Below are positions 19,202-23,314 of a DNA stretch of 50,109 nucleotides, piece after piece. Origin of the DNA: Natrialba chahannaoensis JCM 10990 (GTDB lineage Archaea; Halobacteriota; Halobacteria; Halobacteriales; Natrialbaceae); contig NZ_AOIN01000100.1 of the NCBI RefSeq assembly GCF_000337135.1, forward strand, positions 1-50,109. Reading direction: 5' to 3'. Numbering within the stretch: position 1 is the stretch's first letter; each line of letters starts with the position of its first letter. A program made the translations under genes and the position numbers. The notes under the pieces are model-generated. The model did not search any database and was not told where the DNA came from. It saw only the letters and a program-made list of their open reading frames with translations.

Positions 19202-21187
19202 ATGATGGCTACACAGGAGCCGATTGCCCACAAGGCGCAGTTACGGGCACAGAACATCGGAGGGATTGATGAGACGACAGTTGAACTCGAGTCGGGTATA
19301 ACCGTCCTCGCCGGGCGAAACGCGACGAACCGTACGTCGCTTCTTCAGGCGTTCATGGCCGCCCTCGGCGGCAAATCGGCCTCGCTCAAGGCCGACGCCG
19401 AGGAGGGGTACGCCGAACTCGAACTCGACGGCAAGACCTACACCCGGACGCTCACTCGCTCTGGCAACACCGTCGTCACTGACGGCGATCCCTATCTCGA
19501 CGATCCGAAACTCGCCGATCTCTATGCGTTCTTACTCGAGTCCAACCCGGCTCGACGCGCCGTCACGATGGAGGACGACTTGCGTGAGATCATCCTCCGA
19601 CCAGTCGACACCAACCAGATCGAACGCGAAATTTCGCGGCTGACCGACGAAAAGAACGAACTCTCGAGTGAACTCGACCGTCTCGAGTCGCTCAAGAACG
19701 ATCTCCCGGGGCTCGAACAGGAACGCACCGATCTCCAGAACAAAATCGAGGACAAACGCGACGAACTCGAGACCGTCAAAGAGGCCATTGAGGAGGCCGA
19801 AGCCAGCGCCGACTCCCAGCAGGAGGGCCAGGACGAACTCGAGGAAAAATTGAGCGAACTTCGCGAGCGCCGCTCCGCACTCGAAGATATCCGCTTCGAT
19901 CTCGAAACCGAACGGGAAAGTCTCTCCGCGCTGCGCGAGGAGCGCGAGGAACTCGAGGACGAACGCGCGGAGCTTCCCGATCTCGACTCGCTCGATCGCG
20001 AGGAGGTTGACAACGAGATCGACCGCCTCCAGCGCCAATCACAGTCAATTGACGGTGTTATCAGCCAACTCCAGAGCATCGTCCAGTTCAACGAAGAGAT
20101 GCTTGAGGGATCACATCCCGAAATTCGGCAGTTGCTGGCCGACGGGGACGAACACCGGTCGGACGCCGAATCCCTCACCGATCAGCTCGTCGAGGACCAA
20201 GAAACTGTCCGCTGTTGGACCTGCGGGACACAGGTTGAACGCGAGGAGATCGAGGGCACAATCGAGCGCCTGCGCGACCACCAGGAGACGAAACTGGCAG
20301 AGCGCGACGACCTCGAGGATCGGATCGAATCGCTTCGTACTGAACGCCGCGAGATCAACCAGACGCGCCAACGGCACGAACGCGTCGACCGCCGACTCGA
20401 GTCCGTCAGCGACGAGATCGACCAGCGCGAGGCCCGCCTCGACGACCTCACCGACCGCCGCGAGGAACTGGAAGCCGAAATCGACGTGCTCGAAACGGAA
20501 GCTGCCGAACTCGAGGCCGAATCCGACGACGAGAGCGAGGACGACGAAGAGAGCCTCCTCGATCTCAACCGCCGCGCGAACGAACTCGAGTTCTCCCTCG
20601 GACGACTCGAGCGCGACCTCGAGACGACGACCGAGCGCATCGAGGAGATCGAATCCGACCTCGACGAACAGGAGCGCCTCGAAGAGCGCCGTGAGGAAAT
20701 CCGCGAGGAACTCGAGGAACTCCGCACGCGAATCGACCGGATCGAACGCGAGGCCGTCGAATCGTTCAACGAGCACATGGATGCCGTGCTCGAGGTACTC
20801 GAGTACGACAACATCGACCGGATCTGGATCGAGCGGGTCGGGAAGACGGTTCGCGAGGGACGACGGAAGGTCGAACAGACGGCATTTGACCTGCACATCG
20901 TCCGGAGTACGGCAGATGGGCGGACCTACGAAGATACGATCGACCACCTGAGCGAGAGTGAGCGTGAGGTGACGGGCCTGATCTTTGGGCTCGCAGGCTA
21001 TCTCGTCCACGAGGTTTACGAGGAGGTGCCGTTCATGCTGCTCGACTCACTGGAGGCACTGGATTCGAACCGAATCGCGTCGCTCGTGGAGTACTTCGAG
21101 TCCCACACCGACTTCCTGGTCGTGGCCTTGCTGCCCGAGGACGCGGCGGCTATCGACGACGAATACGACCGCGTGACTGAGATTTAA
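19202..21187 (+). CDS. Archaea-specific SMC-related (Sph-like) protein
   Basis: 661 residues laid out like SMC/Rad50: N-terminal head, two long coiled-coil arms rich in Glu, Arg and Leu (about 140-300 and 355-530), and a C-terminal head. At the hinge, CWTC (residues 338-341) gives a zinc-hook-like CxxC. The nucleotide motifs are odd: the Walker A site reads GRNATNRTS (38-46), lacking the Gly-Lys pair; the signature region is LSESERE; the Walker B region PFMLLDSLEALDS (about 610-622) has Ser where the catalytic Glu normally stands. I believe the degenerate A site is shared by this haloarchaeal subfamily. It faces the RdfA gene tail to tail, and I recall a similar pairing elsewhere. A chromosome or cell-shape role is inferred. 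Confidence 0.85.
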   Translation: MMATQEPIAHKAQLRAQNIGGIDETTVELESGITVLAGRNATNRTSLLQAFMAALGGKSASLKADAEEGYAELELDGKTYTRTLTRSGNTVVTDGDPYLDDPKLADLYAFLLESNPARRAVTMEDDLREIILRPVDTNQIEREISRLTDEKNELSSELDRLESLKNDLPGLEQERTDLQNKIEDKRDELETVKEAIEEAEASADSQQEGQDELEEKLSELRERRSALEDIRFDLETERESLSALREEREELEDERAELPDLDSLDREEVDNEIDRLQRQSQSIDGVISQLQSIVQFNEEMLEGSHPEIRQLLADGDEHRSDAESLTDQLVEDQETVRCWTCGTQVEREEIEGTIERLRDHQETKLAERDDLEDRIESLRTERREINQTRQRHERVDRRLESVSDEIDQREARLDDLTDRREELEAEIDVLETEAAELEAESDDESEDDEESLLDLNRRANELEFSLGRLERDLETTTERIEEIESDLDEQERLEERREEIREELEELRTRIDRIEREAVESFNEHMDAVLEVLEYDNIDRIWIERVGKTVREGRRKVEQTAFDLHIVRSTADGRTYEDTIDHLSESEREVTGLIFGLAGYLVHEVYEEVPFMLLDSLEALDSNRIASLVEYFESHTDFLVVALLPEDAAAIDDEYDRVTEI

Positions 21188-21347
21188 GGCTCACCGGATA
21201 GGTACCGTAACACCAGTACTGGTGTTATGGGTTCAGTATACGAAACAGTTCGCCCGTTGTTTGCAGTTATGGATTGAGGATGCCACCATGTTCGTTGAGC
21301 AACGGGACGGAGGCATGTGCGGTCGCCACCAGTCTGTCCGCCAGTCG

Positions 21348-21971
21348 TCAGGGCTCATAACAGTCACACGAACCTGCATCCAGCAAGTCCGCTACGTCGT
21401 ACTGCTTTCCACAGCGCTCACAGAGTACCTGTACATCTGCAAAAACCCGGTGCGGGCCTACTTGGAGTTGGTCGGTATCCTGGAGTCGATCAAGTTTGCT
21501 CTCCGTGACGGCGACCGTCCGCTGGCGAAGGCCATCGATCGTCCGAGCTATCGTCGTCGCGTTCGTTCGCTCGGTGGCCGACGGTGGTGTGGCGTTTCGA
21601 TATCCGGTCAGATACGACCGAATCGCGCCGTAGGAGACGAACTCGTCAGCGAGCGATGCCACGTCAACGCCCTGGCGCTCGAGTCGGCGCTCGATCTGCG
21701 TTCGTTCACCACGGCTCCCGGTATCGCCCGCGAGTAGCGAGTAGAGCTGTGAGACGTCGTCGGTGACCGTCTCGACCCCGGCGTCGGCGAGTGCCGCCCG
21801 TAACAGTTGTTCGTTGAACCAGTCTGCAAGCGACCGCAAGCTGTCATCGGTCTCGGGGTCCGTCCAGCGACTCTCGAGTTCCCCGCCGATTCCGGCGAGT
21901 TCCTGCTCGTACTCGGCGATGAGGCGGGCAACTTTCGGCTTCGGTCCTGGTGTCGACGATTCGTCGGTCAT
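21348..21971 (-). CDS. rdfA: Rod-determining factor RdfA
   Basis: 207 residues. The order of blocks KVARLIAEYEQELAGIGGEL, SLRSLADWFNEQLLRAALAD, SLLAGDTGSRGERTQIERRL, GVDVASLADEFVSYGAIRSY and AVTESKLDRLQDTDQL, and the C-terminal zinc-ribbon-like CERCGKQYDVADLLDAGSCDC end, match the RdfA family known from Haloferax volcanii, where it is needed for rod-shaped cells. Four Cys in CxxC...CxC probably bind zinc. ATG 21971 (MTDESSTPGPKPK) is preferred to an upstream frame opening at 22022. It converges with the SMC-related gene, 160 bases apart. DNA binding is likely but not shown here. Confidence 0.85.
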   Translation of the reverse strand: MTDESSTPGPKPKVARLIAEYEQELAGIGGELESRWTDPETDDSLRSLADWFNEQLLRAALADAGVETVTDDVSQLYSLLAGDTGSRGERTQIERRLERQGVDVASLADEFVSYGAIRSYLTGYRNATPPSATERTNATTIARTIDGLRQRTVAVTESKLDRLQDTDQLQVGPHRVFADVQVLCERCGKQYDVADLLDAGSCDCYEP

Positions 21972-22420: not shown

Positions 22421-23176
22421 TCAGCTGTACGCCAGCGTCACTTTGATCTCGCCCGCCTTATCCCAGAGGCGATGTGGCAGTTCCTCGTGGACGTACTCGT
22501 CCTTGAATCGGCTCGTTGGTCCGAACACACTCAGCGCGCCGAGCAGCGTTTCGTCAGGCGTATGGACCGGGACGGCAACACCGCGGAGGCCGGACATGTG
22601 CTCTTCGTTGTTCACCGCATAGCCGCGCTCGCGGGTCTTCTCGAGTTCGGCGTAGAGTTCGTCGGGATCAGTGATGGTGTTGTCCGTGCTCGGATCTAGT
22701 CCAACGGCGTCAATGAACTCGGCGACTGCATCGTCGTCCCACTCCGAGAGGATGGCCTTGCCCGCGGCCAGCGAGTGAAGCGGTCGGCGCTTACCGATCA
22801 TCGTACCAGAGAGGCTGCCGTACCGGTGGATGTAAACTCCTTCGTACTTTTCTTCGACGATGAAGCCAGCGCGCTCGTCGGTTTCCTGGCCGAGTTCGAA
22901 TACCTTCCGTTTCGCTGCGGTGTAGCCCGTCCTGCGGTTGCGGGCCTGTTCGCTGATTTCGAGGAACCGAAAGCCGACGAAGTACGCACCGTCGCGTTCG
23001 ACGACGTAGCCGAGGTCCACGAGCGTCGAGAGGTGGCGATAAATGGTGCTCTTGGTGACGGTCGTTCGTTTCGTGAGTTCCGTAATCGTCAGTCCGTCCT
23101 CGTCCGCGAGTGTTTCGAGGAGTTCGAACGTCTTACGGGTCGTGGAAACCCCCACGTCGTCTCGGTCAGTGCTCAT
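22421..23176 (-). CDS. IclR-family transcriptional regulator
   Basis: 251 residues: N-terminal winged helix (LLETLADEDGLTITELTKRT, then TVTKSTIYRHLSTLVDLGYV, about residues 20-60), then the IclR effector-binding domain with GYTAAKRKVFELGQETDERA, SLAAGKAILSEWDD, and RGYAVNNEEHMSGLRGVAVP with the usual glycine-rich end. ATG 23176 (MSTDRDDVGVS) is preferred to ATG 23203 because the TATA-like ttttatt at about 23220-23226 is too close to the latter. The neighbour on the same strand is a glutaryl-CoA-type dehydrogenase, so control of acyl-CoA or aromatic-acid breakdown is a reasonable guess. Confidence 0.9.
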   Translation of the reverse strand: MSTDRDDVGVSTTRKTFELLETLADEDGLTITELTKRTTVTKSTIYRHLSTLVDLGYVVERDGAYFVGFRFLEISEQARNRRTGYTAAKRKVFELGQETDERAGFIVEEKYEGVYIHRYGSLSGTMIGKRRPLHSLAAGKAILSEWDDDAVAEFIDAVGLDPSTDNTITDPDELYAELEKTRERGYAVNNEEHMSGLRGVAVPVHTPDETLLGALSVFGPTSRFKDEYVHEELPHRLWDKAGEIKVTLAYS

Positions 23177-23314
23177 AGCAGCGCGTTCCGGTGGCGCACG
23201 CATGAATGTTCCGGAGAATAAAACAAGTCCACCTCAGTGTGAAACAGACTGTGTCGAACGTGACGGTTGTACCTGTTTACGATCAGTGATGGCTGCTAGC
23301 TTACCGTACTTATG

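Follow-up and report, generated by a model that had tools for sequence, protein, structure and literature searches.

The DNA analysed here, referred to as the window, is a stretch of 50,109 nucleotides from Natrialba chahannaoensis JCM 10990 (assembly GCF_000337135.1 of 4.31 Mb, completeness 96.76%; contig NZ_AOIN01000100.1, C100 in our numbering, positions 1-50109). It carries two convergent neighbouring genes, one encoding an archaea-specific SMC-related protein (ASRP, or Sph) and the other, rdfA, encoding rod-determining factor A (RdfA), and this pair, with the altered nucleotide site of its SMC-like member, is the subject of the present study. The genes and their features are as follows:

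19202..21187, plus strand: ASRP/Sph gene, 661 aa, SMC/Rad50-like head and zinc-hook coiled coil (open reading frame, family search, model)
19313..19339, plus strand: altered Walker A, GRNATNRTS, residues 38-46, with Asn-Arg in place of Gly-Lys (sequence)
19610..20143, plus strand: first long helical arm, predicted coiled coil, residues 137-314, with short breaks (model secondary structure)
20213..20227, plus strand: zinc hook CWTCG, residues 338-342 (sequence, alignment)
20240..20800, plus strand: second long helical arm, residues 347-533, with short breaks (model)
20948..20962, plus strand: equivalent of the ABC signature, LSESE, residues 583-587 (sequence, alignment)
21029..21049, plus strand: Walker B, PFMLLDS, residues 610-616, with LLDS at 613-616 (sequence, alignment)
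21188..21347, no strand: intergenic gap of 160 bp with the two convergent genes on either side (coordinates)
21348..21971, minus strand: rdfA, 207 aa (open reading frame, PF21811, model)
21360..21422, minus strand: C-terminal zinc-ribbon-like CxxC...CxC of RdfA, residues 184-204 (sequence, model)

The larger protein scored 674.7 bits against NF045487 (archaea-specific SMC-related protein, ASRP/Sph), well over the curated cut-off of 300, and 60.9 bits against AAA_23; RdfA scored 230.6 bits against PF21811, for which the Pfam gathering threshold is 27, and its gene may alternatively be read in a longer ATG frame extending to 22022 on the minus strand. Structures were predicted with AlphaFold2 for single proteins. 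The ASRP model (85 aligned sequences, mean predicted local distance difference test score, pLDDT, of 89.7) has an SMC/Rad50-type head, split between the N- and C-terminal parts of the chain, and an antiparallel coiled coil with a CxxC motif at its midpoint, as expected of an ASRP. Foldseek matched it to Rad50 (7zr1_D, E 4.9e-17) and to a chain of the LmuB class (9hqu_A, E 2.4e-10), and the modelled head gave a VIA Z of 21.6 against both an Smc head (5xns_A) and Rad50 (5da9_A). The model of RdfA (pLDDT 92.5) consists of a helical domain, a long helix and the C-terminal zinc ribbon. A fold search with RdfA returned no solved chain at E <= 0.001, the best VIA Z being 5.1 (a P450), below the chance level of the tool; RdfA is left without a fold name and is assigned neither to the kleisins nor to the KITE proteins, and the missing match is not taken as a sign of a new fold.

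The superfamily form of Walker A is G-x-N-G-[ST]-G-K-[ST]-[ST], and Rad50 and SMC proteins, whose partners are Mre11 or kleisin, carry GK[ST] together with a catalytic Glu and are functional ATPases. The window ASRP shares with them the head fold, the antiparallel coiled coil and the Rad50-type CxxC hook, whose cysteines C338 and C341 are invariant across the 85-sequence alignment. Of the two marks of an active SMC-superfamily ATPase, GK[ST] and the Walker B Glu, it has neither (NATNRTS and LLDS): Gly 43 is replaced by Asn and Lys 44 by Arg, so that the Lys is substituted rather than merely missing, and at Walker B the Asp615, invariant in the alignment, is kept and the catalytic Glu is Ser616. 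A preliminary description, made from the letters of the sequence alone, had pointed to the loss of the Walker A Gly-Lys, to Ser in place of the Walker B Glu and to long coiled coils with a CxxC hook, and all three were borne out, the hook lying between the two helical stretches of the model. The predicted SMC/Rad50 fold is retained in this model and the catalytic letters are lost. We also considered LSESE as a degenerate signature and rejected it, since LSTSE, LSRSE and LSKSE occur in relatives with intact Walker A and B.

To place these substitutions in the family, 156 distinct ASRP open reading frames, the window copy included and close relatives not thinned, were collected. Among them 121 carry NATNRTS, four NKTS (with a Walker B of D-A), one GRTS and one NKSS; GK[ST] is present in 11 frames of Sph1 type and in five outgroups, and the remaining 13, in which the N-terminus is missing, were excluded from the Walker A count. 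The names Sph1-type and Sph2-4-type follow PMC11276520 (published work is cited here and below from parts of the respective papers) and were assigned here by motif and tree. Of the 126 Sph2-4-type ASRPs whose N-terminus can be read, 121 have NATNRTS, and NKTS (4) and GRTS (1) make up the rest; as 11 of the 121 are partial frames assigned by motif alone, the figure for tree rows only is 110/115, and the NKSS sequence (L123), a long-branch neighbour of the Sph1 group, was left out of the 126. A GK[ST] P-loop occurs in none of these 126. Walker B was readable in 110 of the 121 and is D-S in every one of them (110/110), and the signature of the same 110 is LSESE in 109 and FSESE in one. Across the 110 full-length NRTS rows the median pairwise identity is 49% (minimum 28%), and the only runs of at least four columns conserved at 98% are NATNRTS, CWTCG and LSESER; the rows were picked by motif, which makes the invariance of NATNRTS in this alignment circular, and the fair figure is 121/126 or 110/115.

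The replacement is thus a conserved trait and the original observation was right; recurrence of the motif in 121 distinct frames shows that it was not a chance one. No close homologue with GK[ST] and the Walker B Glu was found among the Sph2-4-type proteins collected. Sph1-type paralogues keep GK[ST] and lack the Walker B Glu in nine of ten readable cases, and both motifs are present together only in distant ASRPs, namely the methanogen-plasmid proteins L106/L185 and L186 and the protein L108 (genome G191), and in one Sph1-type protein, L129, which retains the Glu. Furthermore, within the 121 NATNRTS proteins Arg44 is written with all six of its codons, Thr45 with all four and Asn43 with both; residues held while codons vary indicate that NATNRTS is under selection. 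Ordinary decay, in which the ATPase motifs would have drifted under relaxed selection, is consequently an exceedingly improbable account of these data: the frame is open, seven contiguous residues are kept while their codons change, and a Haloferax relative has a deletion phenotype (PMC10869688).

Several sequences stand beside these counts. Seven ASRPs from named plasmid records lie outside the 156, except one that is the same gene as L106; among plasmid copies, that of Halorussus salilacus (L187) has GPNASNKTS, LAESE and LDS. L107, read by hand (GSNAVGKTS, Walker B VVDD), and L112 enter no count. Three matches in G186 and G154 (142.6-149.8 bits), L111 to L113, were at first regarded as distant ASRPs; as L113 has LSGGE and the frames beside L111 and L112 start Mre11/SbcD-like as judged by eye, L113 served only as an outgroup.

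The phylogeny of 131 full-length rows was calculated with a quick IQ-TREE run, with SH-aLRT as the only branch support (no bootstrap) and with long branches flagged. The ten Sph1-type rows form a separate group (SH-aLRT 100), with L123 beside it, and the GRTS row has an NRTS row as its closest neighbour (98). No clear branching was obtained at the base of the NRTS group, and the window copy is not placed with Sph3 over Sph2 or Sph4. The simplest order of events, by parsimony on a partly unresolved tree, starts from intact motifs, with Glu lost in most Sph1-type proteins and both Gly-Lys and Glu lost in the Sph2-4 type. The NKTS rows with Walker B D-A (L144, L155-L157) form one group (99) nested within the NRTS-containing set (90), which suggests that Arg reverted to Lys there with neither Gly nor Glu regained. 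Lys in these four sequences, together with a replacement conserved despite free codon change, so that the site has a role, would accord with an active non-canonical ATPase in which Arg44 and another residue stand in for Lys and Glu. We consider this quite improbable, for the NKTS group has Ala for the Walker B Glu and Asn for the Gly, and we know of no SMC-superfamily ATPase that works with Arg and another residue in place of Lys and Glu.

The preliminary description had also placed the protein tail to tail with RdfA and suggested testing whether the pair recurs across haloarchaeal genomes. Co-occurrence was examined across 145 genomes of Halobacteria that are 90% complete or more (ASRP at E <= 1e-60, RdfA at E <= 1e-8). 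ASRP was present in 123 and RdfA in 125 of them; 123 have both, two have RdfA only, none has ASRP only and 20 have neither (Fisher 1.3e-22). In six genera of mixed presence 34 of 36 genomes are concordant, and none of 20,000 within-genus shuffles was as good. In Sulfolobus acidocaldarius, taken as a control, an ASRP over the cut-off was found and no match to RdfA. Adjacency is conserved as well, RdfA lying within 1.5 kb of 105 of the 126 full-length haloarchaeal ASRPs (93/110 of NRTS type, 9/10 of Sph1 type and 3/6 other haloarchaeal loci), a count that excludes the loci selected by RdfA (L076-L105) and frames shorter than 550 aa and that agrees with the published linkage of 42 out of 50 SMC-like proteins found beside RdfA (PMC10869688).

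The pairing is conserved, but its tail-to-tail arrangement does not carry meaning. The two genes are indeed convergent and 160 bp apart in the window; this is a minority arrangement, seen in 21 of the 93 NRTS-type pairs, in which RdfA is otherwise upstream on the same strand (51), downstream on the same strand (15) or divergent (6), and with all four orientations found the idea was rejected. It should be added that the partners track each other between subtypes: over 106 cis pairs the ASRP and RdfA distances correlate with r of 0.84, and when partners were swapped within the 12 genomes holding several pairs the mean r fell to 0.67, only 3 of 5000 swaps being as high.

Pairs on two methanogen plasmids bear on the age of this partnership. 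ASRPs of Methanohalobium evestigatum pMETEV01 (APNASGKTS, LDE) and Methanomethylovorans hollandica pMETHO01 (QPNASGKTS, LDE) are each followed on the same strand by an RdfA homologue. That of M. evestigatum is annotated as such (PF21811, 35.7 bits); that of M. hollandica is annotated as hypothetical and scores 26.5 bits, just below the cut-off of 27, and matches the former at 1.7e-21. Since RdfA here stands beside ASRPs with both motifs intact, the pairing probably predates the loss of the motifs, although transfer of the pair on plasmids between haloarchaea and methanogens is a conceivable alternative. In both cassettes a third gene follows (L185 7672-8157 and L186 7515-8012, about 160 aa), the products being 30% identical (E 6.9e-19) and showing weak winged-helix matches (HTH_45, 27.3 and 26.7 bits versus 25.5); it possibly encodes two winged helices. 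Among the loci collected phmmer detected no other homologues of it.

Other distant ASRPs with GK[ST] lie in clusters of a different kind, L107 3341-8958 (G164, M. evestigatum main contig) and L109 3916-10091 (G148), in which RdfA was not found. The neighbours of both ASRPs include a PAPS-reductase/ferredoxin protein that matches profiles of BrxP, SspD and DndC, as well as uncharacterised proteins carrying Cys pairs close to the N-terminus, and the L107 cluster also holds a TRIP13/IetA-like AAA ATPase. Judged by gene content, they resemble a candidate defence or DNA-sulfur cluster, as yet undescribed, with an ASRP among its members.

Such neighbours raise the question of whether the pair is a mobile or defence-type module, travelling on plasmids that it protects or maintains and affecting cell shape only secondarily. 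In a plasmid collection ASRP matches occurred in 114 records and RdfA matches in 127, both being common on haloarchaeal plasmids, and the free gene orientation would fit as well. A PADLOC search restricted to the window ASRP and RdfA gave LmuB as the best match (67 bits, residues 137-516). Like the window ASRP, Lamassu LmuB is a small Rad50/SMC-like protein (about 650 aa) that frequently carries a zinc hook and has a natural substitution of the Walker B Glu, generally to Gln, for which little or no hydrolysis is suspected; unlike the window ASRP, LmuB has the LmuA effector and usually LmuC as partners and no RdfA, and loss of Walker A is not mentioned in the part of the source drawn on here (PMC10586767). 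We hold a mobile or defence-type function to be very improbable: the LmuB match is mostly coiled coil, 50,697 phage records contained no RdfA match at E 1e-3 and no ASRP match at E 1e-10, and the phenotype in Haloferax is one of shape and motility (PMC10869688).

That phenotype comes from H. volcanii, in which deletion of rdfA (HVO_2174) or sph3 (HVO_2175) leaves only disks, with no motility and no growth defect, and deletion of ddfA (HVO_2176, HalOD1 domain) has the opposite effect (PMC10869688); a second study likewise found no rods after deletion of sph3 (PMC11276520). The introduction and discussion of PMC13286277 (2026) state that Sph3 promotes plates, which is opposite to the original report of disks only in the deletion. 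We examined the corresponding loci of four Haloferax relatives. The locus of Haloferax gibbonsii (L042) runs DUF1616, RdfA, ASRP, HalOD1 protein, and tblastn placed a HalOD1 protein downstream in L031, L032 and L036 too; the ASRPs of all four rdfA-sph3-ddfA loci have GRNATNRTS, LSESE and LLDS. Judged by these four relatives, the shape genetics published for Haloferax concern the class that lacks the canonical motifs.

The window pair and Haloferax Sph3-RdfA hence belong to the same two families, as adjacent genes with the same NATNRTS, LSESE and LDS, the window ASRP being 49% identical to the H. gibbonsii protein. They differ in gene direction, convergent in the window and co-directional for Haloferax rdfA-sph3, and in ddfA, for which a search with the H. 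gibbonsii HalOD1 protein gave no match in the window. Sph1 of Halobacterium salinarum on pNRC200 also lies beside rdfA, which is directly upstream, but unlike the window protein it has ASNFQGKSS, LSEGE and a Walker B of LLDG. As for the wider family, the name ASRP dates from 2022 and brings coalescin and Sph together; its authors described Walker A and B, a zinc hook in most members, and flanking genes that follow no consensus (Yoshinaga et al. 2022, PMC9389158). The Sulfolobus coalescin ClsN shares the NF045487 equivalog and the zinc hook with the window protein, whereas the Walker A and B described for the family are absent in canonical form from the Sph2-4 type; a 2022 review left it open whether ClsN has partner proteins (PMC9764264).

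One further neighbour is worth recording:

22421-23203, minus strand: IclR-type regulator, upstream of rdfA (named by likeness to annotated neighbours)

Of 32 loci, 14 have a homologue of this regulator no more than about 5 kb from the ASRP, a figure that comes from non-independent relatives and has no background count beside it; annotation also places IclR genes close to H. salinarum sph1 and to a Halorussus plasmid ASRP-RdfA pair.

Taken together, we favour, with a confidence slightly better than even, the reading that the window gene encodes a Sph2-4-type ASRP that is an RdfA-dedicated zinc-hook SMC scaffold with a rebuilt, non-hydrolysing nucleotide site. The protein would dimerise through the zinc hook and present SMC/Rad50-type heads, in which the rebuilt site (NATNRTS, LSESE and D-S) would no longer hydrolyse ATP, as its sequence suggests. 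The head would then be fixed in one state, or its switching would depend on a process that involves no ATPase cycle. As the dedicated non-SMC partner, in physical complex, RdfA would occupy the place that Mre11, kleisin or LmuC take elsewhere, and the two proteins together may form a static tether or scaffold on which rod shape and motility depend. In favour of this reading, a profile search of the window assembly found a single ASRP over the cut-off, so that a second, active ASRP is absent as a pairing partner.

Several observations weigh against this reading. RdfA is missing within 1.5 kb from 17 of the 110 NRTS loci, seven of these 17 having less than 1.5 kb of flank on one side. Orientation is not conserved, and a shared transcript therefore does not explain the linkage. 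When only NRTS pairs were considered (eight genomes with two pairs each) the tracking of partners was non-significant, 1151 of 5000 swaps being as good; partner matching holds between subtypes and not within them. Moreover, the window assembly has two RdfA genes, the second of which (contig C84, 21498-22073, locus L012; 253 bits) outscores the window copy and is unlinked to an ASRP, C84 itself having no ASRP match in the profile search. Finally, N40, S46, S584, E587 and D615 of the ATP site are still conserved, and all four Sph deletions of H. volcanii lower survival in a gene-conversion assay (PMC11276520).

The last two points each belong to an alternative. With N40, S46, Ser584, Glu587 and Asp615 retained, the site may still bind nucleotide, and the protein might be an ATP-binding switch that does not hydrolyse, in which RdfA or a different head, for example Rad50 or SMC, governs head engagement. 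LmuB offers a parallel, as its putative ATP-binding activity was essential where tested, with hydrolysis suspected to be low or none (PMC10586767). We regard such a switch as rather unlikely, because both the Gly and the Lys of the P-loop are replaced in 121 of 126 proteins, and in the part of the LmuB report used here a change is mentioned at Walker B only.

The lowered survival in gene-conversion assays leaves room for a DNA role. In the corresponding alternative the protein is an SMC of chromosome organisation or recombination, like coalescin ClsN, and its effect on shape is indirect, through gene expression or the state of the genome. ClsN is of the same family (PMC9389158) and organises the B compartment of Sulfolobus (PMC9764264), a double deletion of sph2 and sph4 is not possible (PMC11276520), and deletion of Sph4 causes some drop in short-range chromosome contacts (PMC9764264). 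The same Sph4 deletion, however, brings no significant loss of boundaries or loops (PMC9764264), the sph3 and rdfA deletions grow normally and yet form only disks (PMC10869688), and S. acidocaldarius has its ASRP without a detectable RdfA. A DNA-centred function is accordingly, in our estimation, somewhat unlikely, and the RdfA-dedicated scaffold is retained as the preferred reading.

Some of this was known. The ASRP-RdfA pair, its role in shape and its synteny are published (PMC10869688), and the preliminary idea of a non-hydrolysing SMC-like partner of a cell-shape regulator stands in part, in that the motif loss and the RdfA link are conserved and published genetics place Sph3 and RdfA in the same process, although neither the pair nor its synteny was new. 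Our literature searches, among the matches listed and at the level of titles and abstract openings, found no description of Walker-motif loss in Sph proteins. What is added here is the motif replacement, its graded series, the methanogen pairs with intact motifs and the free orientation.

In broader terms, and as a conjecture that we would sooner doubt than assert, an SMC motor may have been dismantled stepwise with its partner kept: from proteins that are ATPase-competent by motif (methanogen plasmids), through a binding type (Sph1), to those with no canonical site (Sph2-4). RdfA would be the constant subunit of a distinct archaeal SMC-type ASRP-RdfA complex, the methanogen winged-helix third protein being perhaps KITE-like, and the outcome would be a motorless zinc-hook scaffold of cell shape.

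SMC and Rad50 proteins are regarded as ATP-driven, and in the branch containing the window protein and the Haloferax shape protein the ATP site has been replaced under selection. This opens, in a tractable archaeon, the question of whether an SMC-like protein can do its work without the ATP cycle and what RdfA would supply instead. For the pairing already described a direct partner is now predicted, and its examples on methanogen plasmids indicate that the pairing is older than Halobacteria or has spread beyond them. With the same partner family throughout, the graded series of motifs would amount to a natural experiment on a motor becoming a scaffold.

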